Position numbers and translations under genes: made by a program. 54,706 nt of DNA, taken from positions 1-54,706 of IMG/VR virus record IMGVR_UViG_3300011269_000005; one strand, written 5' to 3'. This stretch comes from a virus. Shown here in pieces: positions 7,981 through 54,706 of the stretch. How positions within the stretch are numbered: position 1 is the stretch's first letter; each line of letters begins with the position of its first letter. Below the pieces are notes generated by a model. It made no database searches, was not told the DNA's origin, and saw only the letters and a list, made by a program, of their open reading frames with translations.

Positions 7981-8292
7981 TTATTTCCAACACGGTACAG
8001 AAACGTTCCGCATTTCCTCGTGCATCGGCCATGTCCATCCATGGCGCGCGGCCCATCCTTCGGTGCGCGGACCCGGCACGTTAGCCCAATTATAGGTCTC
8101 GCACATTGCTACGTCGCCGTGCCGCACATAGCTGGTGATTGTCGCCCATTCTTCAAGACTGTGATACCAAGGATAGCCGTAAATTGGACGATCGCAGACC
8201 CAAGCCCCTGACTGATCGGGGCCGCTCCCCATCCACGTCCCGAGTGTGAATGAGAAGGCTAAGACAATGATGATAACCCTCGTGATCTCCAT
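7981..8292 (-). CDS. Exported or membrane-anchored small protein (103 aa)
   Basis: Start ATG 8292, just after the previous TAG; a GTG at 8313 is an alternative. Residues 4-23 (TRVIIIVLAFSFTLGTWMG) are one hydrophobic segment, then an aromatic, Cys-containing domain (four Cys, many Trp/Tyr). Likely secreted or periplasmic. Not recognised. Confidence 0.6.
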   Translation of the reverse strand: MEITRVIIIVLAFSFTLGTWMGSGPDQSGAWVCDRPIYGYPWYHSLEEWATITSYVRHGDVAMCETYNWANVPGPRTEGWAARHGWTWPMHEEMRNVSVPCWK

Positions 8293-8293
8293 A

Positions 8294-9022
8294 CTAGCGA
8301 ACCGAACGTACACGCTGATCTACCGGCTTGCGGCGGCGGGCTCGTCGTGAATGCGGCGTCTCAATTAATGCTCGGCCTGTCCTATTATGTGCGAATCCAA
8401 GATATTGAGCCGGGAATACCTGCTGCCAACCATGCCCTGGATCCCAAGTCGCCTGATAGGCTCCAGGTAGCATCGCCGCCGGATTCCACGGCCCACTCAG
8501 TTTGCGCATCAGATCCCAGGGACCTTTACTTCCCGGCACAAAATACGCTGGCAATACGAAGTTGCTGAGCATCATCCCGTGCTTGATCTGCCCTTGAGTG
8601 TCGTCCTCGACTGGGTCGCATGCCTCGTAGGCCAGAAACAGCGCGTTCGGCAGATCCGACCATTGTGCGGTCTGGTCGATATATGGGTCGCCGAGCATTT
8701 CGAGAATCTCATGGCTGATGGTCACGGAGGGCTTCATCCCCGCATCAAGGGTCGTCTTGGCGAAGGCGAAACCGATAGGTCCGCCGCCTGAACCGGTCTC
8801 ATGAAAACCTGCTGCTCCGGCAACTGTGGAATCGTCCGCTATAACAAATTGCCATGACGCGGGATTCATCTTCTGGTCTTTCGAGACGAATTTAAATCCG
8901 ATGAGTTCCGTATCCCAATACCTTGCAAAATCTTGATTTGCTTGGGCCGCAACGGCGCTCATGACTGCTGCGACTTGCGCATCAGTCATCACGGTGGATA
9001 TGTTCTGGTACTGGATAATCAT
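8294..9022 (-). CDS. Zincin-like putative metallopeptidase (HEXXE)
   Basis: 242 aa. Residues ~100-113 read VTISHEILEMLGDP: an HExxE centre followed ~25 residues later by AYEACDPVEDD, supplying further acidic ligands. I recall similar proteins with SHE-LEML-DP and SNFVLPAWF blocks in other phages and bacteria, usually unannotated; here SNFVLPAYF is present. A zinc peptidase acting on a cell-envelope or virion substrate is an inference from the motif. The C-terminal ~25 residues are Arg-rich. The gene begins directly after the TGA of the small anchored protein upstream and is followed by another anchored protein. Confidence 0.55.
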   Translation of the reverse strand: MIIQYQNISTVMTDAQVAAVMSAVAAQANQDFARYWDTELIGFKFVSKDQKMNPASWQFVIADDSTVAGAAGFHETGSGGGPIGFAFAKTTLDAGMKPSVTISHEILEMLGDPYIDQTAQWSDLPNALFLAYEACDPVEDDTQGQIKHGMMLSNFVLPAYFVPGSKGPWDLMRKLSGPWNPAAMLPGAYQATWDPGHGWQQVFPAQYLGFAHNRTGRALIETPHSRRARRRKPVDQRVRSVR

Positions 9023-9286: not shown

Positions 9287-10365
9287 CGCATCTCCATCAG
9301 CGCGGTCGGCCATGCTCGCTTAGACTCCTCATCGAAGCGCTGTAGACCGTGGTAATTGTGATTGTGCAGGTGATCTTCCTGTCGCCGGCCCGACCAGGCA
9401 ATATTCATCTTGCTGATGATATCGACTGTGCTGGTGGGATCGGCCTGAAACATTCTGGCCACCCATGAGACTTCAGGCGATACAACGACGGGCACATTTG
9501 CAATCACGAAATCGGCGCTAACGATGTTGAAAGTCTCGCTGAAGGAGACCTGCATTCCAAGGTCCATCAGCCGGACTAAGGACATGAATTCGCTACGGTC
9601 CAGCCAGGGATGACCGACGAGCGTGTGCGGCGGTTTTACGTTCGCGAATAATGCGCGCAGATTCTTCAGTACCTGGGCTCCGTTCATCTCGATTCGATCC
9701 GAATTGATGTGGAATCGGATCGTGAAGCCCCGTGCGTTCGCCCAATCGATTGCGGCACAGGCCTGAGTGAGTTGGTTCTTCATAGGCCGGATCGCCCCGA
9801 AGCATCCAATGTCCACTACATCATCCGCCGGCAATCCCTTACGCGGTTCCAGCGGCGCGAGCGGGTAATAGTTCGGCGTGTAGGGGATATGAACACCAAA
9901 GATCCGTCGAAAATCGGTTTGTGCCCGCAAGGAATTAGCCGATACCGTGACATGGGCCAATTTCGAGTACGCGAATAGCCATTCCATCGCATTTCCCTCG
10001 TTCGCAAGGAAGGGCAATTCACTGTGCATGCGGACATTCCATCGGATATCAGGGTGCAATCGAGTCAGTAGGGCTAGCTTGGCCGGTCGGACCCATAGGG
10101 CCTCCAAGATAGCGTGTGTCGGTCTGGATGCCGTAACGGCGCGGTCTATCTCGTTGTCATCCTGTATACGCTCGAATGCCGCCTCGATGCCGAGGCTCTG
10201 GAGCATATCGGTAACGTAGTTGACCGAATTTCGCAGCCCGGTCCAATTGGTATTAGGCCAGCCTCGCGGCTGCGGGTGTGGTGGATGCGGAGGATGAGGG
10301 TGGTGGTGCGGGTCGTAGTAATCGCCACGTTTCTTGAGCAGAAACAGAACCTTAACAGGCTTCAA
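9283..10365 (-). CDS. Glycosyltransferase-like protein (GT-B fold, GT4-like)
   Basis: 360 aa from TTG 10365; a stop lies three codons upstream and no ATG occurs in the first 50 residues. GGAG precedes by 11 nt. An N-terminal strand VKVLFLLKKRG is followed by a His/Pro-rich loop. DIGCFGAIRPMKNQLTQA matches the inter-domain 'G-(F)-G-R-x-K-N' region of GT-B enzymes. The C-terminal domain holds SFSETFNIVSADFVIANVPVVV, the position where family members carry the ExFG-x-x-x-EA donor-sugar motif (here a weak match). Likely modifies a surface glycan, virion or DNA; the substrate cannot be read from sequence. Confidence 0.65.
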   Translation of the reverse strand: MKPVKVLFLLKKRGDYYDPHHHPHPPHPPHPQPRGWPNTNWTGLRNSVNYVTDMLQSLGIEAAFERIQDDNEIDRAVTASRPTHAILEALWVRPAKLALLTRLHPDIRWNVRMHSELPFLANEGNAMEWLFAYSKLAHVTVSANSLRAQTDFRRIFGVHIPYTPNYYPLAPLEPRKGLPADDVVDIGCFGAIRPMKNQLTQACAAIDWANARGFTIRFHINSDRIEMNGAQVLKNLRALFANVKPPHTLVGHPWLDRSEFMSLVRLMDLGMQVSFSETFNIVSADFVIANVPVVVSPEVSWVARMFQADPTSTVDIISKMNIAWSGRRQEDHLHNHNYHGLQRFDEESKRAWPTALMEMR

Positions 10366-10371
10366 CGGATT

Positions 10372-11292
10372 CTATGCTCCCTGCGCTCCGATGCGAATCA
10401 GCCGATCCCATTCCTGTCGTTCCGGGCCGCCTGGATTCGCGATGACCTTGCCGGACCATTCCTTATCGAGTTTGAGCATATCCAAACGGGCGCGCGCCGC
10501 CGCCGGGCTCATATCGAAACCGTTGCGCCCACCGTCCACGAATTTGTCCTCGACGCCGGCTTTTTCGCCGATCATCGCGAACAGTTTCATGAAGGCAGAG
10601 GTGCCGATAGCGTCTTCGACCTTGCCGAGAATTTCGCTGGCTTTCTCACCCGCAATCTTTTCGCCGACCAGGGGAACAACGAATTCGCGCACGGCGCGGC
10701 GCGCTAGCTCCTGTTTCTGATTGAAGACCTCGCCCGGCCATTCTTTGTGCAGGGTCTCCATGTCGAGCTGTTCCTGCTGTTCTTGCGCGCGGTCTTGCGC
10801 AGCCACGGCTTCATTCATATAGCTATTCCAGCCGTTGGCGATCACGTCGACTTGGCGCTGGTTGAGGCCGGCTATGTGGAGAAGCGGTGCCATCTTGCCC
10901 GCGAATTCTTCGCCGCCTTCGACTGTGGGGAGCTTGTAATCAGCCGCCGTCTTCGGTCGGCCGAGACGATCATATACAGCGGCAATCTCTTCGGGCTTGG
11001 CAACGCCGAAATCTTTGGGCACCCGGAGCAGGTCCTCCTTGGGTACACCAATGAGCTTCTGCGCCTCCCGAGCGTCACGCGCGGCGGCCTCGGGATCCTT
11101 CCAATGATTCAGCTCGGCATAGCCCTTAAGGTCCTTATCCGTAAACGTCGAGTACCAAGGCTCAGTGCCAGAGCTTGGTGCCGGCTGCTGCGTCGAGGAT
11201 GCTGCCGATGGTTGAGAAGCCTGCGACGGTGCTGGCGCTCCCGCTGCAGGATCCGTTATCGCTGCCGTGCCAGATGTTGGCGCTCCTGCCAT
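10372..11292 (-). CDS. Scaffolding/head assembly protein
   Basis: 306 aa. A disordered Ala/Pro/Ser/Gln-rich start is followed by WYSTFTDKDLKGYAELNHWK, ALxxR-AQKLIGVPKEDLLRVP and YDRLGRPKTAADYKLP, a pattern I associate with scaffold-like proteins next to podovirus capsid genes. The rest is helical and charged (coiled-coil-like), ending GPERQEWDRL. ATG 11292 has GGGAGA six bases upstream. The gene is expected next to the capsid gene but here it is separated from it by ~5 kb of accessory genes. Confidence 0.75.
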   Translation of the reverse strand: MAGAPTSGTAAITDPAAGAPAPSQASQPSAASSTQQPAPSSGTEPWYSTFTDKDLKGYAELNHWKDPEAAARDAREAQKLIGVPKEDLLRVPKDFGVAKPEEIAAVYDRLGRPKTAADYKLPTVEGGEEFAGKMAPLLHIAGLNQRQVDVIANGWNSYMNEAVAAQDRAQEQQEQLDMETLHKEWPGEVFNQKQELARRAVREFVVPLVGEKIAGEKASEILGKVEDAIGTSAFMKLFAMIGEKAGVEDKFVDGGRNGFDMSPAAARARLDMLKLDKEWSGKVIANPGGPERQEWDRLIRIGAQGA

Positions 11293-40646: not shown

Positions 40647-41195
40647 CTATGGTATCGGGAGCAACGAGATTTGCCCCCAGCCCGCCCATGTTCCTGGCGT
40701 TCCACCGACGACGCAGACAATCGCGCGCGGTCCCCCGAGCACTGGCGGCTGAATCCAGAACCAGTCCCCTATGGCGAACGTCCCACTAGTCGGCTTTCCC
40801 TGTGCGACCCCCTGAAACCCAGCGAGCATTTCCTGGATGATGAGGATAGCGTTATCGAGCGCTGCCTCGTGTGAACCTGCTGGGAATGGATCTTGCGGAT
40901 TATAGACAGCGGTCTGCGCCCGTGGCGTATGCCGCGTGATAAGTATCTGGCCGGCTGTTGCCGGAGCTACGCCAAAGGTAACCGTGCCACCTTCGCTATA
41001 AACGTTCAGCTTCGCGTCGAGGGCACCGCTCACGGTGTAATCGGTATTGAGGATTTTCGTCGTCACTACTCCGAGGGAATCCGTGAACTGAACGATCAGG
41101 TCAGGGATCGCCCTGAAATAGAAAGGATAGGGGAAGGCCGTGGCGATCCCGTCCGTCAAGTAGATTATGGTGAGAGTCTCGTCTTCGACTGCCAT
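40647..41195 (-). CDS. Tail fibre N-terminal anchor (T7 gp17-like)
   Basis: 182 aa. [60 protein letters not shown] and [12 protein letters not shown] are the virion-attachment domain of T7 gp17 (PF03906). It lacks a distal receptor part, so fibres are probably assembled with the exported proteins encoded just downstream. Confidence 0.85.
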
Positions 41196-42737: not shown

Positions 42738-42847
42738 TTCACAATGTCGCCATCTGTGATAACATCGTTGTTAGCGGTGCCAGGTCTATACCGGGAGTAC
42801 GAGATCATTCGGAATCCTAGAGAGCAGGCCTGGCATCTTGCTTTCAT
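42734..42847 (-). CDS. Small protein between ejection protein and terminase (37 aa)
   Basis: ATGA overlaps on both sides (42844-42847 and 42734-42737). MKARCQACSLGFRMISYSRY with one CxxC. Not recognised; the double coupling is strong support. Confidence 0.55.
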   Translation of the reverse strand: MKARCQACSLGFRMISYSRYRPGTANNDVITDGDIVK

Positions 42848-45800
42848 TGTAGCCTCGGGACTATGGCATTAGACGGACCTGCCACGCCGAACTCATTAGC
42901 GACCGGGGGTGAACCACTCAGAGCCTGTATGGCATCGGGCGAGAGGCCACGGAGCGCTTCTTTATGATTCTCCACCATATCGGCGATCTTCGGGTCATCG
43001 AGCATTCCCACGTTCGCGATATGGGATGCTCGCGCTAGAATATTCTCGATGGTTACCTTCTTTAGTTGGTCGGGATCGGTCGGATAATCCTTGTCGTTGA
43101 TGTAGCTTTCGAGATCTTCCCGCAGCCCGTCCGCCCTATCGGCGTTCCATTTCTCGGTTGCGCCTGGGAACTTATCGAGAAATTGTGGCGGATGCTGTGC
43201 ATTCACGTTCAAGCGTGCCAATTCGTTCACGACGTTATCATGGCTTACCTTTGTCACGTTGACCGGATAGAGCAACCGTGCGGGTAGCCCCATCGTCGGA
43301 TTTGGCGCTGGCTTGTTGAAGATGTCCACCTTCGGCTGAACGTTCTGTGCCAATCCCGCAGTTGGCGAGAATGGCAACCCAGCCTCGGTTAGTGGGTCCA
43401 ACTTATGAATCCCCGGAATGCCGGTTTCGAGTTCCTGCGCAACCGTCTGGGGGTTGCGTGCCAGCGTATCCGTCCCCATCGCGACGCCTCTCAACAACGC
43501 CGACCAAGGAACGAGACCGGATGCTTCTGAGCCGACAAATTGCTTAAGCGCTTTCGGTTCACCGTCTGCGATGTCGGTCCAGAGCTTCTTGATGTTGACT
43601 AAGCCCTGCACGATAGAATCGTTCGCCATCGAATTGCCGATTGCGCGCGCTGCGGCGCCCGCCTTATCGAGCGCATCGGGATCGCTCATAGCATCGCGAT
43701 TCTGTAGATAGTTCCCGATAATGCCGAATGGCGTATCGAGCGGCGGAGGCAGTGCTACTAGCGAATCGCCGAACCTCGCTTTCGGTGAGCCGTACTTATC
43801 GAGCACGAGGTTCCCCTGATGGAATTCGTGGGCAATAGCCACGCTCATCATCGCGCCAAATGCCTGCTTCGCGAGCGCGGCGCTGCGTTGCTGAGCGGTC
43901 CCGTAGGCGATGTCGGACGCTTGAGTGAGCGCGCCCAGCCCCGGCGTGTAATCAAGGCCCATCTTCTTGACGTTATACGCAATGCGGAAAAACGGCATCA
44001 ATTGTTTGAGCACGGGGTACTGGAATACATCCGAGACGCTTTTCGCGAATGTGCCCTGTTCAAGTTGATTCACGAAGGTCATCGAATCGGCTTCTTTACT
44101 GGCGTTCAGCCGCATCTCGGCAGGCATGTCATTGATGGTGCCGTGATACAGTTCGGTGGCACGATTGTAGCCTTTGATACCGTCAAGCCCTTCCGCGGCG
44201 GCCTGGTCGACCGCGTCGCGCCACGCCAACATGTGCCCGGCCATCGAGGTCCCGGCAGAATGCACGAATTGATGGACGCCCGTCAGGACGTTCCCGCCAA
44301 GGCGCAGCACATTGCCGAGATAATCCACACCCTTCCCGATTCCGCTACTCTCCCAGTCGGCGGTGTCAGGATTGTATGCACCGAGCCCGAAAGCCTGTCC
44401 CGAGATTGCGCGGTGCGCACCGTAGCCGAAAGGATTGTCAGCCTCGATACTGCCGCCTTCCATTTGCGACAGCCGCTTGCCCGTCTTGCCGCTCTCCAAG
44501 CCGATGTCGGCAGAATGCCAGAAACCATTCACTATACCTTGGATACCTGCTAGCGGCTCGCCGAGCTTGACGCCCGATCCCGGCATCATCCCCTGAATCA
44601 GCCGCGTCGGGAGGGTCATCAGCCCAGATACCGTGCTCGAAGTGGCGATCCGGCTGGAGGTCCGGCCAGCGTTACTTAGCAGATTGTTGAAGTAATACTC
44701 GTTGAATGCGTTGTAGAGAGATCGCCCCAGTCCCACATCCTCAGACATTTGCCGTGCGACGCGGGCGAACTTATCGGGACCACCAAGCTGATGAAGCAAG
44801 TCGGACAATCTCTGTGCGTTGTCACCCTCGCCAAGTTGCTGGGCGATCTTGGCCGTCGCTGCCACAAACGCATTCCCCGGCTTATTGGGGTCAAGAATTT
44901 GGAGGCTACGGCCAACATCTGAGCGCGTACCGGCCAAGACGGAATAGTTTTCGGCGAATGCGGCGAAGCGATTGCCGAGTTGCTGAAGGCCAGTACTCAC
45001 ATCCTCGCCCTTCGCTGCGCGCGCCCAGAGGTCTTCATTGAAGGAATGGATACCTTTATTTTCTTCATGGTAAGTGCTGGCCAACGCCTGAACATGCGCG
45101 GCCAATTGAGGCTTCTCTGCACCTTGGGCATAATAAGATTCGAGGTCCTGCCGGAGTGACTTCGATTCGTCCATCGTGAGCGATTCAGGGACGGTAGTTG
45201 CGATCTCGGGCTTGCCGAATTCGGTTGCGGTCTGCTCGCCGACGCGGACGGCCTTGAGGTTGTCGAGTTGCTTCTGAGCGAGGGTTGAGGCTGCTGCCGC
45301 CGGCGTCGCGTGCTCGGGCGGAATTACGGGAGCCGGCGCGGCGGATGCGGGGGTTGCCGCACTACCCGCTACAGCGCCGGTCCCTTCAGCGGTCGCCGGA
45401 GGAGGAGATGCCGGAGTAGCCGCCGATTTTATCGGATTGCCCTGAGTATCGAGAATTGTGCCCTTCGGGAATTCTGTTACGCCCTCTGTTGTCGCCTCTG
45501 CACCCTTTGCAGCTTTGACCGCCGTGCCTGCTTCTTCTGTGGCATCAACGGCTTCGCCAGCTTTCCCGATTCCCAACGGCAGTGTAGCCACCTGCGTTCC
45601 GAGGCTAGCTATCTTGCCTATGGTATCGGGATCGATAGGTGAATTCGGATAGACGCGCTTCGCGATACTGCTGGCAGCCTCGGCCACTATATCACTAGAC
45701 TGTAAGGCTTCCTGTTGAGCCGTGGGAACTCCGGCAGGTGGTCTAGCGGGAGTCATCGGCGGCGCTAGCTCGGCATTCGCAGTGACAGGTTGTGCCGTCT

Positions 45801-46302
45801 CGGGATGTATCAGCCTCAGCAATTCGGGATGTTCAGCCAGCAGCGTGCGGCCATTCGCCACGTCCTGATTATCTGCCTGGCGTGCTGCGTACTGCTGATC
45901 GACGGATGCGGGACCGTTCGCGCCGTGAGACGCGCGGTCAGCATAGTTGGCGGCAATCCCACTAGGCGATCCACCGGATGGTCCGGCTATCTTGAGCACA
46001 CTGTCCGCGTATTCGTCCGATGTCGGGAATCCTGGGCCAGGGTCGCCTCGCCCGTAGTAAGACTTCAGCCCTTCTCGTTCGTTGCCATTGTGCTGATCCA
46101 CCAACGATCCGAGGATCGTTGTCCCGGCCATCCGATTGTATGCGGGATCGCGTAGACGGCTAGGATCGAAACCATAAGCCTTTGCCGTCTCTGGTTCGAT
46201 CTGCATCAACCCGACCGCACCAGCGCCGGCATCCTGTGGATTGGCCCTGCCACCAGTTTCCTGCTGAATTACAGCATTCACCAATTCTGGGCGGGCTGGC
46301 AT
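42844..46302 (-). CDS. Internal virion protein with N-terminal lytic transglycosylase (T7 gp16-like)
   Basis: 1152 aa. Residues 1-90 are an SLT domain: ELVNAVIQQETGG (catalytic Glu15), GAVGLMQIEPETAKAYG and YNRMAGTTILGSL. A Pro/Ala-rich linker and a long helical body follow. The protein cuts peptidoglycan and forms the ejection channel on infection, matching T7 gp16 in order and domain layout though shorter. TAATG start from the upstream ejection protein. Confidence 0.9.
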   Translation of the reverse strand: MPARPELVNAVIQQETGGRANPQDAGAGAVGLMQIEPETAKAYGFDPSRLRDPAYNRMAGTTILGSLVDQHNGNEREGLKSYYGRGDPGPGFPTSDEYADSVLKIAGPSGGSPSGIAANYADRASHGANGPASVDQQYAARQADNQDVANGRTLLAEHPELLRLIHPETAQPVTANAELAPPMTPARPPAGVPTAQQEALQSSDIVAEAASSIAKRVYPNSPIDPDTIGKIASLGTQVATLPLGIGKAGEAVDATEEAGTAVKAAKGAEATTEGVTEFPKGTILDTQGNPIKSAATPASPPPATAEGTGAVAGSAATPASAAPAPVIPPEHATPAAAASTLAQKQLDNLKAVRVGEQTATEFGKPEIATTVPESLTMDESKSLRQDLESYYAQGAEKPQLAAHVQALASTYHEENKGIHSFNEDLWARAAKGEDVSTGLQQLGNRFAAFAENYSVLAGTRSDVGRSLQILDPNKPGNAFVAATAKIAQQLGEGDNAQRLSDLLHQLGGPDKFARVARQMSEDVGLGRSLYNAFNEYYFNNLLSNAGRTSSRIATSSTVSGLMTLPTRLIQGMMPGSGVKLGEPLAGIQGIVNGFWHSADIGLESGKTGKRLSQMEGGSIEADNPFGYGAHRAISGQAFGLGAYNPDTADWESSGIGKGVDYLGNVLRLGGNVLTGVHQFVHSAGTSMAGHMLAWRDAVDQAAAEGLDGIKGYNRATELYHGTINDMPAEMRLNASKEADSMTFVNQLEQGTFAKSVSDVFQYPVLKQLMPFFRIAYNVKKMGLDYTPGLGALTQASDIAYGTAQQRSAALAKQAFGAMMSVAIAHEFHQGNLVLDKYGSPKARFGDSLVALPPPLDTPFGIIGNYLQNRDAMSDPDALDKAGAAARAIGNSMANDSIVQGLVNIKKLWTDIADGEPKALKQFVGSEASGLVPWSALLRGVAMGTDTLARNPQTVAQELETGIPGIHKLDPLTEAGLPFSPTAGLAQNVQPKVDIFNKPAPNPTMGLPARLLYPVNVTKVSHDNVVNELARLNVNAQHPPQFLDKFPGATEKWNADRADGLREDLESYINDKDYPTDPDQLKKVTIENILARASHIANVGMLDDPKIADMVENHKEALRGLSPDAIQALSGSPPVANEFGVAGPSNAIVPRLQ

Positions 46303-47807: not shown

Positions 47808-48290
47808 CTATGGCCCCTTCTTCCCCGGCACATATCCACCATAGCCGCCTGAGACCCCGGTGAGCAGCGATGTCCCAATGCCGCCATAGAGCGCGTCTTC
47901 TGCATTGGAACGATAAATACGACTTTGATATCTCTCCACCGCTGCCGCATCAAATGCCTGATGGCGTTCGAGTTCTCCACCGTACCAGATATTGAGAGCG
48001 TCCATGCGGGCATTCGTAGCGCTCTGCTTCTCAACGGTCTGCACGCTGCCGCCAGTTCCGATGTTGGCCTGTCCAAAGGCTGCCGCCTGTTCGCCGAGCG
48101 CCGCCGCCGATCTACGTTGCGACTGCGCCATATTCGCTGCCGCCGTATTGCTTTCGGACACGCCTTGCTGCGTCAGAACTGCGGCATTATAGTCCGCCGC
48201 TTTGGCCTGAGCTGAGAACTGATTGCTCCTCTGGATAGCCCCGAACACACCAGCGGTGGTTCCTACAATGGCCATCGTCACCGGGTCCAT
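47808..48290 (-). CDS. Internal virion protein (T7 gp14-like)
   Basis: 160 aa. MDPVTMAIVGTTAGVFGAIQ start with a small hydrophobic patch, then A/Q-rich helix (QAKAADYNAAVLTQQGVSES) as in gp14-type ejection proteins. Ends GYVPGKKGP. Adjacent to the gp15-like gene. Confidence 0.8.
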   Translation of the reverse strand: MDPVTMAIVGTTAGVFGAIQRSNQFSAQAKAADYNAAVLTQQGVSESNTAAANMAQSQRRSAAALGEQAAAFGQANIGTGGSVQTVEKQSATNARMDALNIWYGGELERHQAFDAAAVERYQSRIYRSNAEDALYGGIGTSLLTGVSGGYGGYVPGKKGP

Positions 48291-48707
48291 TCAACTAATC
48301 CTCGAATAGAGCATGGCGTCGCCACCGTCGCCAAATTTCCGCATAATGCCTTCGGTCTCGAATCCTAGGATCTCAGTCACCCAGCGGTGGCCTCTCAGAT
48401 TGCCCATATATACGACTGTTTCGATTCGCCGTGCGTCGAATTGACGGAGCCACGCCCGCATCAATTTGCAGATCTGCAGGAAATATCGGCTCGCCAATTT
48501 ATCATCGGTAAATGCCCAGCAACGAAAATTGCCAGGATTCTGCTCACACACACCCATACAGGCCACTACGCCTTCATCTACGATGCCCGCGAAGCCGTTG
48601 ATCGCCAGAGTCTCGACGTAATCCGCACGCTCTAGCAACGGCTCGACGGTAACCCCGCGTTTTAGCATCGCCTCCAGATGCCAGCGCTCTAGTTTCTCCA
48701 CTCGCAT
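48291..48707 (-). CDS. GNAT-like gp13-type internal virion protein
   Basis: 138 aa. ACMGVCEQNPGNFRCWAFTD, ARRIETVVYMGNLRGHRWVT and EILGFETEGIMRKFGDGG follow the GNAT acetyltransferase fold as in T7 gp13-like proteins. The acetyl-CoA loop is not clearly present. TGATG overlap with tail tubular B C-part. Confidence 0.75.
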   Translation of the reverse strand: MRVEKLERWHLEAMLKRGVTVEPLLERADYVETLAINGFAGIVDEGVVACMGVCEQNPGNFRCWAFTDDKLASRYFLQICKLMRAWLRQFDARRIETVVYMGNLRGHRWVTEILGFETEGIMRKFGDGGDAMLYSRIS

Positions 48708-50950
48708 CAGTCTTCAGTCTCGAGATTCGGATACATTCCGACAATCGTCACAGGATAGGGTTCGTCGTTAACATAGGTCATCCGGCCCTCGACCTCAGAG
48801 CCGCCTGGCCAATTCATCGCGTAGGTCTCCTCAGGCCACATGCCATTATAGACCTTCAGCCGTTCATCCATCGGATCGTCGGGATCGCGAAATTCCAGCC
48901 CATCCATTACGGTCTCAGGCGGGTCGCTCAATTCGGCATCTGGGTCTTCGCGGCCTGCGCGGCCGCCAAGCGTATTCAGAAACCGGAAAGTTACATCCAC
49001 GATGCGCTTAACCTTGGCCTGCGCAGTCCCATTCGGCGCGCTCGCCTCGATCGGCATCGTGGTAAGACGGCAGCTCTGTGGCAGTCCCCACTGAACGATG
49101 CTCGCTACCCATTCCAGCGTAATCTGGCCGCCAGTCACGACGCGATCCGGATGTCTGGCCCCATCCGTCAAGACTTTTACGGTCTGGCCTTCGAGACGAT
49201 CCATGCCTGTAATCACTTTTGTCGGCGGACCATTGTAAGTGCCGCCGGAATCCGAATATAGCGACTGGGTTGCCAAATCGTCGCCGGTGAGAAAATGCGG
49301 CGCCATGAATTCGATATAACGTCGCGTAACTCCGTTGATCGTGCGATTCACCACCATCCACAATTCATCCTGCGATCCTGTGGGCGATGGGATGCAGGCA
49401 ATCGTCTCCAGCGCTCCGATCATCGGATGGCGGTGCCACGCAATTACCTGCTGTTCCTCGTTGAAGGTGAGACCCACCAAGTTGCCATCACGCATCCCCC
49501 CAGGGAATGGCTGCGGCGGCACTGGGGGCACAACCCCGCAAGATTTCCCGACAACACTTACATTCTTGATCAGGAAACTGTAGGCAAACCAAGCTGTTCT
49601 ATACCGCACCACTCCGAATTGGAGGATTTGCTGCGCTTCCGTATAGGCAAACTCATCTGGGATCGGATTGCAGGAATCCGGAGTGCCCAGATATCCCACC
49701 TGAAAGTCGCTCTGGTTTCCATAGAACGCTAATAACTGATAGCCCGATGGAGCATTCGGAACGGTGGGAGGCCAAATGCCCGTACCCGTACCAGGCGGGT
49801 CTACCGCTGCAAAGAGCAGGAGCGACACATCGTTACGCCAGTCTGGCGTTAATCCCGGTGCCTTGGGACTCCCGTCGTATCCTGTCGCAGTTTGGAATCC
49901 ATTAAAGAGATGCGCCGGATCCTCGTGAACGAAAGCGTAGACGAGTACCGTCCATATATTCAGCGTGGGGCGGGGCAATAGCCACGTATAACTGGGGATA
50001 TCCGATTCCGTATCTGTCGCGACCTTATAGAAGAGCCATGAAGCAGATGGCGGATTTACGGCGTGATTTTCCAAATATGAACCTGACAGAAGTGTCCAAC
50101 CGACAGGGATGACCTGGAAGGGATTCATTCCAGGAGCTGTGCCATTCGACCATATGTGAGCGATCAGGAGGTCGCCCTTCTGCACTCCTGTCGGTCTAGG
50201 CGGATTCAGTTGCGCCCCTGTGAAAAATGGAAACGCGGTATCATGGCTACTGCTACGAAATACAATGTCGCTATCCGCGGTTGCGGATGGCGTGAATATC
50301 GCATCATCAGTCAATAGGGGCGGCTGTGCCTCATTGACGAGGCTCGAAAACAGTGCAAACGTGCCGGAGCCCCAGAAATGAGGATTAGAATCGTCCGCAT
50401 TGGGCTCAGTCCACGTGTCGGAGACGATACCGGCCGTTACATACTCGTAGCCGCCTGCGCCTCCGCCTTGCGGGCCATTCTGCGCTGGCGTGAAAGGACT
50501 GGATAGTGGTGACAGAAGCTTATTGACGAATTCGATGAAATCGACGAGGACCAGCGCATTTTGACTTGGTGTGATCGGATCGCTGGTTTTCGTCTGGACC
50601 GAGTTGGCCGAGGACATAACGGCCGCCCCGAAGCTAATCGTGCCTCCACCGATGCTATAGAAGCTGTACTGATTGAAGACGTAAGCCTGGTTGCTGCCAT
50701 CCCAGGTGAATGTCCACGTCGGAGTACCGCCCTCGAATATATGCCAGAATGCTTGATAACCCGCGATTAGGCCATTTATCCTGTGCCACGTGCCATCTGG
50801 CGGATTGATCTGATGGCCGGTGCCGACGTTACCGGTTACGATAATTAGGTCTCCAGCATGCGTGGTGGTGGAACCGAAAGATGCACTGGACCCGCCGCCA
50901 GTGGACAGCCGGTTAAACGCCGCACGGAGAGTGGGATCGTAGATCGGCAT
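48707..50950 (-). CDS. Tail tubular protein B C-terminal part fused to adhesin-like domain (747 aa)
   Basis: Residues ~485-747 match the C-terminal region of T7 gp12-like tail tubular B: GLTFNEEQQVIAWHRHPMIG, TINGVTRRYIEFMAPHF, YNGPPTKVITGMDRLEGQTV and RVVTGGQITLEWVASIVQWG. Residues 1-~480 are unrelated, Gly/Pro/Thr/aromatic-rich beta units (GDLIIVTGNVGTG; GDLLIAHIWSNGT; PVGWTLLSGS) like those of the exported fibre proteins. So the nozzle protein's second half carries a large new N-terminal domain. The junction reads (M)RDGNLVGL. Must assemble with the 732-aa N-part. Confidence 0.75.
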   Translation of the reverse strand: MPIYDPTLRAAFNRLSTGGGSSASFGSTTTHAGDLIIVTGNVGTGHQINPPDGTWHRINGLIAGYQAFWHIFEGGTPTWTFTWDGSNQAYVFNQYSFYSIGGGTISFGAAVMSSANSVQTKTSDPITPSQNALVLVDFIEFVNKLLSPLSSPFTPAQNGPQGGGAGGYEYVTAGIVSDTWTEPNADDSNPHFWGSGTFALFSSLVNEAQPPLLTDDAIFTPSATADSDIVFRSSSHDTAFPFFTGAQLNPPRPTGVQKGDLLIAHIWSNGTAPGMNPFQVIPVGWTLLSGSYLENHAVNPPSASWLFYKVATDTESDIPSYTWLLPRPTLNIWTVLVYAFVHEDPAHLFNGFQTATGYDGSPKAPGLTPDWRNDVSLLLFAAVDPPGTGTGIWPPTVPNAPSGYQLLAFYGNQSDFQVGYLGTPDSCNPIPDEFAYTEAQQILQFGVVRYRTAWFAYSFLIKNVSVVGKSCGVVPPVPPQPFPGGMRDGNLVGLTFNEEQQVIAWHRHPMIGALETIACIPSPTGSQDELWMVVNRTINGVTRRYIEFMAPHFLTGDDLATQSLYSDSGGTYNGPPTKVITGMDRLEGQTVKVLTDGARHPDRVVTGGQITLEWVASIVQWGLPQSCRLTTMPIEASAPNGTAQAKVKRIVDVTFRFLNTLGGRAGREDPDAELSDPPETVMDGLEFRDPDDPMDERLKVYNGMWPEETYAMNWPGGSEVEGRMTYVNDEPYPVTIVGMYPNLETED

Positions 50951-50953
50951 AAG

Positions 50954-51364
50954 TTAGATTCTGAAGATGCCGCTTCCGTTCCAGACGACCGGGATATTCG
51001 CGCCACTCGTGGCGAGCGGGAAGCCCAAAATCGTGTCAAAGAGCATGAGTAGCGGGGACGTCACATCGGCGGGGCTGCCATCGCCTACCAATTTGTAGAG
51101 GGCTATGAATTTCGCTAGAGAGCCGCCTGGGACTGCGGGGAATGTCGCCGTTGCCGCGTTCAATGTCCCGGCTGTTGTCGTGATAGAACCGAGCGTCTGA
51201 TCTGTTCCGACCCGATTGGCCCCGAGGTCATTTAAGTGGACGTGCGCCGCCAAGTTTGGGGTATACGTATCCTTGAGCAGGCATACTTTGATGGTATCTA
51301 CTGCTGGGTCCAGTTGTGAATCCAGCACGTATTTCCGTCCGCTATCGAACCAGTTATTTGCCAT
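50954..51364 (-). CDS. Phage structural protein (136 aa), common head/tail accessory family
   Basis: DTIKVCLLKDTYTPNLAAHV, HLNDLGANRVGTDQTLG, KFIALYK and LLMLFDTILGFPLATSG follow a widespread small phage structural family (YT...H..L.D). Inserted between the two halves of tail tubular B. Three bases separate it from the next gene. Confidence 0.75.
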   Translation of the reverse strand: MANNWFDSGRKYVLDSQLDPAVDTIKVCLLKDTYTPNLAAHVHLNDLGANRVGTDQTLGSITTTAGTLNAATATFPAVPGGSLAKFIALYKLVGDGSPADVTSPLLMLFDTILGFPLATSGANIPVVWNGSGIFRI

Positions 51365-51365
51365 G

Positions 51366-53564
51366 CTATTTCAGGTTCCCATTGCGGATCATCCAGATTA
51401 CTGCGTCCGGTTCCTGCTGGAATGCGAGCGTCAGGGGACCATTTTTCTCAAAGATATGGTTGGCGAGCGCCGCCAAATCCTCGCTCTGATATTGGTCGGT
51501 GAAAAACTGATACTTCATAATGCGCATCTTCTGACCGCTGGTTTGTGACCAGATGAGCGAATAGCCGATTAAGGTGGGTTTGATGGCGCGCGAGCCGTGG
51601 CGCATCTGTGCCTTACTCGCGATATTTGCCGGGCCGAGCGGTTGCGAAGGATTTGTCTCCTGAATGATATGCTCGCCGCTCGCAGTCCCGACTACGAGCA
51701 CACGACCCTCGACCAGCCACTGAATCGCGTCCTGCGTCGGTAGCGTTATGTTGATGGCCATGTCGGCGGTCACTAATCCGCCTGGGGTTAGTGCCGAGAA
51801 GTTCTCAAAGTCGGCAGATACCGAGAGAAATACCTGCCCGTGGCGCCCGAATACTAGCCGACCGCGAAAGAATGAGACCGTCTGAGGAAAGCCGTCACGA
51901 TTATTGAAGGCCCCGACCGCCCAGTTGGAGGTGGCGTTCGATGCGAATACGACGGCTTGCGGAAGCCGATTGATGGTTCCCGCCTGTGGCTGCTCGATCA
52001 CATCCGCGGTTGCCGTCCAGAGCCGATTATCGACCGTGCCGCCGGAGACATACGGCGTCCATAGCGTCCCATCTACATTGGGACCAGTACCGTCACCATC
52101 CGTATCGTCCTGATGCAACTGAAAAGTATTTCCCGATATGCCGGCCGCCCGATAGAACGTATCGTTCACCTCGACCATGCCAACGACATCCTTGATGAAT
52201 ACGAGATCGCCGTTGGCAAACACCGGGCTGGTAGAAAGCGTCACGACTGGCGGATTTGCGGCCGTGATGCCCGTGATCGTGGCGGCGACGCCCACAGGAT
52301 CTATGCCACGTGCGATTAGCTGAACGAAGCCGAACCCAGGGTCACGGTAAGCCCACCGTATACCCGCAGTATCGCCATTATCCCAGGCCTCGCCGCTGAT
52401 ATGCGTAGGCGGGATCGTGCCAGTGGTTCCCCCGTTCATAGCCTCGTAGGTAATCCCATTGAACCGTCGTCGCTTTCCCTTGGCGACTGCTTTCGTCGAT
52501 TCCCACGGCCTGATGGTCCGCACATTCTGCTCAGTGAGCTGAAAGAGTGCGCCCATGATGCCGGGATCGAAGATATCGGCCGAGGCTGTCAGCGTGATTC
52601 CATTGCCATCCTCGGCAGAGGCGAACACGATTGGATTGGTCCCTGGATTGGCATCGCCGAATGGCCCGCCAGTGAACTGTGACAGACGGTCTAATCTCCA
52701 ATTGGCTGTGCCGAAGTGCAGCAGTTTATAGACGGGAAACTTGGTGCTGCGGTGGGTGATATAGATAACGTCCGCGCTCGGCACATAATCGAGTTGCGCA
52801 AATCCGTTGGCGTCATATAGATCCGTGAAGGCGTAGGGTGTTGGAATTTCATAGACTACCGATGACGGTGACGAGGACGTACCGCTTCCGCTAAAGCCTC
52901 CTCCTCCGGCGGTCACTTGCTGAATACCCACGCCTGAGTAGATTATGGCCCCTGTCGCGAAGACCGTCAGCGGTGCCCATTGCGGCACGCCGAGATTTAC
53001 CCATTGAACGGGATTGGGATCGCCCGCATCAAAATCATAGGTGGTACGCCCGACAGCGGTTTGCCAGATTGGCGGCAGGCCGCTCTTTGAGGTTCCGGCA
53101 TGCCTGCAGCCCTGGATATTGCCATTGCTGTCGACGATGATGTCCCCAAGACTGCGCACGACGCCGGGTGCCCAATAAGTAAATCCGAGATTCGTCCAGG
53201 TCAGGGCGCCATCTATGGTCGTTCCGCCCACCGTGGGATTCCAATTCGGGCCTAGTACTGGGCCGATGGTCAGGCTGGTGACTGGCGCGTGATTCTGGTG
53301 GAACCGCAGATAGTGGTCGCCCCACTCCAACATGAAGGATTCGGTGACGTTGAAGACGAAGGGCATCAGGAACACAAGCCCAGAGTTCTTGGTTTCAGCT
53401 TCAAAGCGCGTGCCTGGGCGACGCCGCACCGGGCCTTGCACCATCGGGATGAAATTCTCGAGCCTGAAACAGCCGGAGCCGTACTGTTTGATATCGGTGC
53501 GGCTCTCGCAGGCGGGGGACAGCTCCCCGCTATTGAAGGCGACTAATCCGGGCGAGGCTTTCAT
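51366..53564 (-). CDS. Tail tubular protein B N-terminal part (732 aa)
   Basis: FNSGELSPACESRTDIKQYG, LENFIPMVQGPVRRRPGTRF and FMLEWGDHYLRFHQ are the N-terminal hallmarks of gp12-like tail tubular B; RLVFGRHGQVFLSVSADFEN-F and MRIMKYQFFTDQYQSEDLAA, LANHIF...LAFQQEPDAVIW are its middle hallmarks. The frame stops at MIRNGNLK, exactly where intact homologues run on as 'DG-L-LTY..EQ.V.AWHRH'. That continuation is found 1.9 kb further on in the 747-aa gene. The two products probably make one nozzle subunit non-covalently. Confidence 0.85.
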   Translation of the reverse strand: MKASPGLVAFNSGELSPACESRTDIKQYGSGCFRLENFIPMVQGPVRRRPGTRFEAETKNSGLVFLMPFVFNVTESFMLEWGDHYLRFHQNHAPVTSLTIGPVLGPNWNPTVGGTTIDGALTWTNLGFTYWAPGVVRSLGDIIVDSNGNIQGCRHAGTSKSGLPPIWQTAVGRTTYDFDAGDPNPVQWVNLGVPQWAPLTVFATGAIIYSGVGIQQVTAGGGGFSGSGTSSSPSSVVYEIPTPYAFTDLYDANGFAQLDYVPSADVIYITHRSTKFPVYKLLHFGTANWRLDRLSQFTGGPFGDANPGTNPIVFASAEDGNGITLTASADIFDPGIMGALFQLTEQNVRTIRPWESTKAVAKGKRRRFNGITYEAMNGGTTGTIPPTHISGEAWDNGDTAGIRWAYRDPGFGFVQLIARGIDPVGVAATITGITAANPPVVTLSTSPVFANGDLVFIKDVVGMVEVNDTFYRAAGISGNTFQLHQDDTDGDGTGPNVDGTLWTPYVSGGTVDNRLWTATADVIEQPQAGTINRLPQAVVFASNATSNWAVGAFNNRDGFPQTVSFFRGRLVFGRHGQVFLSVSADFENFSALTPGGLVTADMAINITLPTQDAIQWLVEGRVLVVGTASGEHIIQETNPSQPLGPANIASKAQMRHGSRAIKPTLIGYSLIWSQTSGQKMRIMKYQFFTDQYQSEDLAALANHIFEKNGPLTLAFQQEPDAVIWMIRNGNLK

Positions 53565-53570
53565 GCAGGC

Positions 53571-54706
<1,136 letters not shown>

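Follow-up and report, generated by a model that had tools for sequence, protein, structure and literature searches.

A short-tailed phage clade that appears to encode its tail nozzle in two open reading frames, with a foreign module at the cut

The nozzle of a short-tailed phage, the exit of the DNA from the virion, is normally made of one chain, because it closes the DNA channel and must change shape at ejection. How can a phage carry the parts of a gp12-type nozzle (tail tubular protein B) in two separate open reading frames, with a third between them? This arrangement occurs in IMG/VR virus record IMGVR_UViG_3300011269_000005, which we analyzed over its whole length of 54,706 nucleotides (hereafter the window). 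The genes at issue and their parts are listed from the start of the first chain onward:

51366..53564, minus strand: nozzle chain 1 (gp732, 732 aa), matching phrog_376 (E 3.5e-106) and ending VIWMIRNGNLK before a TAG stop
52860..53267, minus strand: optional chain 1 insert spanning approximately residues 100-235 (~135 residues), a gap in the alignments of L022, BcepC6B, Carin1, and L004
52032..52256, minus strand: FCCH-like small domain, chain 1 residues 437-511 (PF16190, E 8.9e-5, 22.9 bits, below the cut-off of 29.5)
51365..51368, minus strand: first joint, with the TAG stop of chain 1, one base, and the ATG of the 136-aa gene
50954..51364, minus strand: gp136, 136 aa (phrog_644, E 1.7e-22, positions 4-141; PDB 9d93_Ra, E 2.2e-5)
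48707-50950, minus strand: nozzle chain 2 (gp747, 747 aa), comprising the foreign module (residues 1-485) and the nozzle C-part
49496..50950, minus strand: foreign N-terminal module, chain 2 residues 1-485, without Pfam, PHROG, or PDB match
49496..49534, minus strand: proline-rich linker VVPPVPPQPFPGG (chain 2 residues 473-485), connecting the module to the nozzle C-part
48710..49495, minus strand: nozzle C-part, gp747 residues 486-747, starting MRDGNLVGLTF (phrog_376, E 3.5e-61; PDB 8ck1, E 7.4e-25)

The window carries a 123-bp direct terminal repeat (1-123 and 54584-54706). Because L001 and L002, contigs of two other metagenome datasets, run over its ends at 99.9% identity, it is a complete and circularly closed (or circularly permuted) genome of ~54.6 kb. 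The phage is short-tailed, of the BcepC6B/epsilon15 sort, and its genome includes a portal-like head-tail connector, an adaptor, the nozzle, a gp14-like internal protein, and a transglycosylase protein, as well as several collagen-like fiber genes around the nozzle. The surroundings of the two chains are those of a nozzle, with the adaptor upstream and the gp14-like and transglycosylase genes downstream, and the order adaptor, collagen-like, collagen-like, nozzle is identical in L003:

1137..1769, minus strand: adaptor of tail tubular A type (phrog_394, E 1.3e-52; phrog_9239), upstream of the nozzle via the circular join
53571..54611, minus strand: collagen-like/Gly-rich fiber protein (PF01391, PF21722), immediately upstream of chain 1
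47808..48290, minus strand: internal virion protein resembling T7 gp14 (phrog_418, E 4.3e-14; PF24072 at E 5.5e-5, under its cut-off), downstream
42844-46302: SLT transglycosylase, downstream of the nozzle genes

Other genes nearby deserve mention in their own right. A small phrog_4177 protein (48291-48707) directly overlaps the end of gp747, and other phages of the group have proteins annotated as acetyltransferases at the same position. At 40647-41195, a 182-aa protein has a fiber-type N-terminal anchor (residues 1-127) followed directly by ~50 residues similar to the C-termini of tail fiber families; it is possibly a minimal fiber adapter without a receptor domain. HNH endonuclease genes lie near the tail genes, in L003 at 8052-8495 (after the gp747 homologue) and in the window at 1753-2190 (upstream of the adaptor).

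A preliminary description of this sequence had taken the 732-aa product for the N-terminal part of the nozzle, continued inside the 747-aa protein, and its three minus-strand ORFs are as listed above. Homology bears this reading out. The phrog_376 profile (712 positions) matches gp732 from the N-terminus, with its best stretch at positions 2-264 and a second stretch, and its positions 468-711 match gp747 residues 487-747; jointly, the two pieces span positions 2 to 711. The phrog_30010 profile runs uninterrupted over the cut (190-240 in gp732, 239-302 in gp747). The description had made its case hang on gp12 homologues that align end to end across both pieces, and such homologues were found: the intact nozzles of BcepC6B, Carin1, epsilon15, HTVC010P, and L022 cover both. 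In L022, residues 3-623 align to gp732 and 621-891 to gp747; in BcepC6B gp12, residues 3-515 and 517-766 do so, respectively. With intact nozzles as queries, no strong match was found in the window genome beyond gp732 and the gp747 C-part. A gp12-type nozzle is expected as a single chain; all six genomes with the split that we identified (see below) have two ORFs with a third between them. Among ~80 surveyed loci that carry the C-part, those with an intact nozzle have both parts in a single ORF, the matched segments lying 0-42 nt apart. At the level of sequence, these comparisons confirm a gp12-type (tail tubular B, phrog_376) nozzle encoded as two ORFs.

Chain 1 has extra sequence of its own. 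The insert at 52860-53267, with repeated W-x-P...G motifs, is present in L003, L009, and L019 and absent from L004 and the intact relatives; by these alignments it appears to be a second place where the nozzle bears additional sequence. Stretches matching the FCCH-like domain are found in L022 (315-403), HTVC010P (103-186), and Olaya-1 (102-179), and the domain sits at differing positions among nozzles (window, L022, L102, and L104), as if it had moved within the protein.

Where does the cut fall in the nozzle structure? In an AF2 model of L022, the closest intact relative (mean pLDDT 76.6), it corresponds to the turn RSDG at residues 620-623, a four-residue beta-turn flanked by strands 614-619 and 624-633 (pLDDT ~88). 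By Foldseek, this model matches the Carin1 nozzle 8ck1 with a TM score of 0.80 by target length and T7 gp12 with 0.55-0.58. T7 gp12 has a seven-bladed propeller, then a fiber dock, then a platform (PMC6702177). Because of this domain order, and not by superposition, the C-part probably includes the last portion of the propeller together with the fiber dock and platform.

The joint between chain 1 and the next gene is tight. Stop and start codons overlap in L004, L019, and L021 (TGATG, TAATG) and are separated by one base in the window, which suggests translational coupling. The edges of the cut also resemble each other: as the preliminary description had noted, the junction is partly duplicated. 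IRNGNL and MRDGNL are alike at 13/18 bases across six codons. The repeat is confined to the lineage of the window and L003, however. Chain 1 ends in IRGDVT in L004, IRQ in L009, and IRGDNT in L019, so the repeat is not a general feature of the split.

The split is shared by six members: the window, L003, L004, L009, L019, and L021. In the tree, they form one group (support 97/95) adjoining the intact L022 and L024, a topology that points to a single origin of a split that is old, shared, and fixed in the clade. A candidate seventh member, L091, was rejected, as its copy has frameshifts and no module. When genomes were scanned with the split C-part, the hits were limited to four distant relatives (40-48%); none was a prophage belonging to the split clade, and the collections searched contained no cultured member. 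In the window compared with L003, dN/dS is 0.056 for chain 1, 0.124 for gp136, 0.117 for the module, and 0.023 for the C-part. Every coding segment is under purifying selection, with gp136 and the module least constrained and the C-part most.

In every split member, chain 2 opens with a large foreign module (375-490 residues across the clade) joined to the C-part, usually via a proline-rich linker. L004 and L019 are 84.5% identical in chain 1 and 84.6% in the C-part, and their modules have no clear BLAST match to each other; in L004 coordinates, the DNA similarity stops at 9819, the first joint, and returns at 11027, the first codon of GDLIGF and the first conserved codon of the C-part. L009 and L019 have modules 34% identical beside nozzle halves 74% identical. 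These sharp DNA boundaries indicate that modules have been exchanged between clade members. The lineage of the window and L003 has gp136 and a module without family match; the sister lineage has an Asp-box module instead. The modules of L009, L019, and L021 contain 4-6 Asp-box motifs, compared with ~0.2 in shuffled sequences, and that of L004 contains two. Pfam BNR and Sortilin matches of the sister-lineage modules are below cut-off. Because the Asp-box repeats exceed the shuffle level, a BNR-type propeller is likely in L009, L019, and L021. As a separate observation, L019 and L021 are 99.9% identical in chain 1, 97% in the module, and only 91% in the C-part, a pattern that looks like recent exchange within the C-part.

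What is the window's own module? Residues 1-485 of gp747 lie outside all nozzle alignments, in agreement with the earlier claim of a foreign N-terminus fused before the second chain. The label "adhesin-like" has no support from family or structure matches: the module has no match to Pfam, PHROGs, or PDB sequences, including any receptor- or carbohydrate-binding family. Its only relatives in a search of viral contigs (viral_contigs) are three other contigs, all of the same clade; searched alone against phages it had no match, and a nucleotide search of the region against the phage collection found nothing. The AF2 model of gp747 is too poor to use for the module (mean pLDDT 44). Two candidate assignments were dropped. 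The halves of the module are not detectable repeats (hhalign probability 1.4%), as two tandem lectin-like domains would have it, and a similarity of residues 206-268 to LOX-1 lectin (E 0.93) was judged to be chance. The last 20 residues of the module contain six prolines, compared with 8.8% proline before them. A proline-rich joint between module and nozzle is also present in L003, L009, and L019 and weaker in L004; it is clearest in the window, L003, and L009. That the module changes faster and is replaced at a constant joint fits a host-facing part, and the module may bind a receptor or otherwise contact the host.

Contrary to the preliminary description, the gene between the chains is not new. 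Over its whole length gp136 is homologous to phrog_644 and to the 'Tail wing arm, gp31' of PDB 9d93, matching 9d93_Ra over residues 4-105 ('tail wing arm' is the depositors' molecule name), and the link to 9d93 is corroborated through a related prophage protein (E 2.4e-19). PDB 9d93 is probably from mycobacteriophage Bxb1. Elsewhere, gp136 homologues adjoin very diverse downstream proteins, among them neither a window-type module nor a nozzle. Such varied neighbors are what a portable tail part would show.

Taken together, we consider it likely that the nozzle is made of two chains that fold together, with an exchangeable module on chain 2 at the cut. Chain 1 (gp732) would form the larger share of the nozzle and end with the first of two strands of a beta-hairpin; chain 2 (gp747) would begin its nozzle part with the second strand and continue to the C-terminus. 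The two would pair via the hairpin strands at the cut, making each position of the nozzle ring a heterodimer. The module, in place of the four-residue turn, would hang outside the nozzle on its usually proline-rich linker, in at most one copy per subunit. Before ejection, it would touch the surface of the host, or a glycan of the cell wall or capsule. Because the module starts its own chain and its free end need not return, modules and their companion genes (here gp136) could be swapped without re-engineering the nozzle.

Several other explanations have to be weighed against this one. An assembly error or a decayed gene has next to no chance of being correct. The sequence is indeed a metagenome contig, and the preliminary description had allowed for a misassembly. 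But L001 and L002 cover the first joint at 99.9% identity, and L003 has the same layout with both joints, its nozzle parts 88-93% identical to those of the window. The second joint (~49.5 kb) is covered by one contig of the exact sequence, the homologous joint of L003, and an open frame. Four more lineages have the split, and dN/dS is low; the split is not an assembly error. Covalent rejoining of the halves, whether through an intron, a split intein, or ribosome bypass over the inserted genes, is also very improbable. The short repeat at both edges of the cut speaks for it, but this repeat is absent from the sister lineage, no Rfam match was found in 48000-54706 (E up to 0.5), and only 1 nt separates chain 1 from the next gene, with no space for intein sequence. 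The module, moreover, is in frame with the C-part, is under purifying selection, and has a proline linker. The nearby HNH genes raise the thought that an endonuclease broke the nozzle gene before the modules arrived; as the cut itself is free of HNH genes in all six split members examined, we give this order of events little credence.

Two further alternatives accept the split and differ on what the pieces do. In one, the C-part has left the nozzle, so that chain 2 is a separate tail protein and chain 1 alone a shortened nozzle. That chain 2 is its own gene with a big new N-terminus would suit this idea, which is nonetheless improbable: the cut parts two adjacent strands of one hairpin, the C-part is the most constrained segment, and the genome has no other copy of the C-terminal domains. 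In the other, the two-chain nozzle is real and the module is structural, strengthening the nozzle or docking the collagen-like fibers and the wing-arm protein. The resemblance of gp136 to a tail wing arm, the collagen-like fiber genes flanking the nozzle, and the lack of a match to receptor-binding families are all consistent with such a role, and we regard it as possible, if clearly the less probable view of the module. Rapid replacement of modules beside constant nozzle halves fits host-facing parts better, and the highly varied downstream neighbors of gp136 homologues also speak against a purely structural role.

If the two-chain nozzle with a host-facing module is correct, the clade shows that a core nozzle part tolerates a break, at an exactly defined turn. 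Whether that turn serves as a natural, heritable display slot, where large host-facing modules are swapped at one set position without involving the tail fibers, we regard as an even question. Such a slot may be a second site, besides fibers and spikes, for host-facing parts on short-tailed phages. A literature search of incomplete coverage returned no report of a split tail tubular protein B or of a nozzle display domain. What is new is the pairing of the cut with an exchangeable module, and we found no precedent for it here.

Known systems share parts of this arrangement. The gp12 of Burkholderia phage BcepC6B is of the same family, with the order adaptor, nozzle, small genes, transglycosylase and a C-part 44% identical to that of the window; unlike the window's nozzle, it is a single 768-aa chain with a tight turn at the cut site and no module. 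Bbp13 of Bordetella phage BPP-1 is named in the record as a homologue of BcepC6B gp12. The solved nozzle gp36 of Cobetia phage Carin1 (8ck1) matches the window's C-part in sequence and L022 in fold, but it is one chain and has an extra segment of its own elsewhere in the C-part (~585-668). T7 gp12 (PDB 6r21, 7boy) shares its overall fold with the intact relative L022; it too is one chain without a module, with hardly any sequence identity. The tail tubular protein B of Pelagibacter phage HTVC010P carries ~110 foreign residues 24 residues downstream of the cut site, within one intact chain. The 9d93 gp31 family, homologous to gp136, has further members in Mycobacterium and Pseudomonas F116-type phages; unlike gp136, 9d93 gp31 has no adjoining nozzle and, if our attribution is right, belongs to a long-tailed phage.

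A parallel to the split itself is found in Xanthomonas phages CP2 (ORF19 and ORF20), Olaya, and their kin, which have named hosts; there, two neighboring genes encode a nozzle of this family. These genes encode 463 and 570 aa with a 1-nt overlap (TAATG), in Olaya at L104 2980-6083 and in CP2 at L106 2480-5583, and are annotated as hypothetical or tail proteins. Their cut interrupts a small beta-rich segment, around Carin1 residue 315, and their chain 2 has no large foreign module. Of the re-engineered nozzle proposed in the preliminary description, then, the two chains and the foreign module stand, but a nozzle in two chains is not by itself a unique feature, given the split at another position in CP2 and Olaya. 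The two-chain nozzle seems to have arisen at least twice, apparently independently in the Xanthomonas phages, and its presence in phages with named hosts suggests that a working two-chain nozzle is possible.
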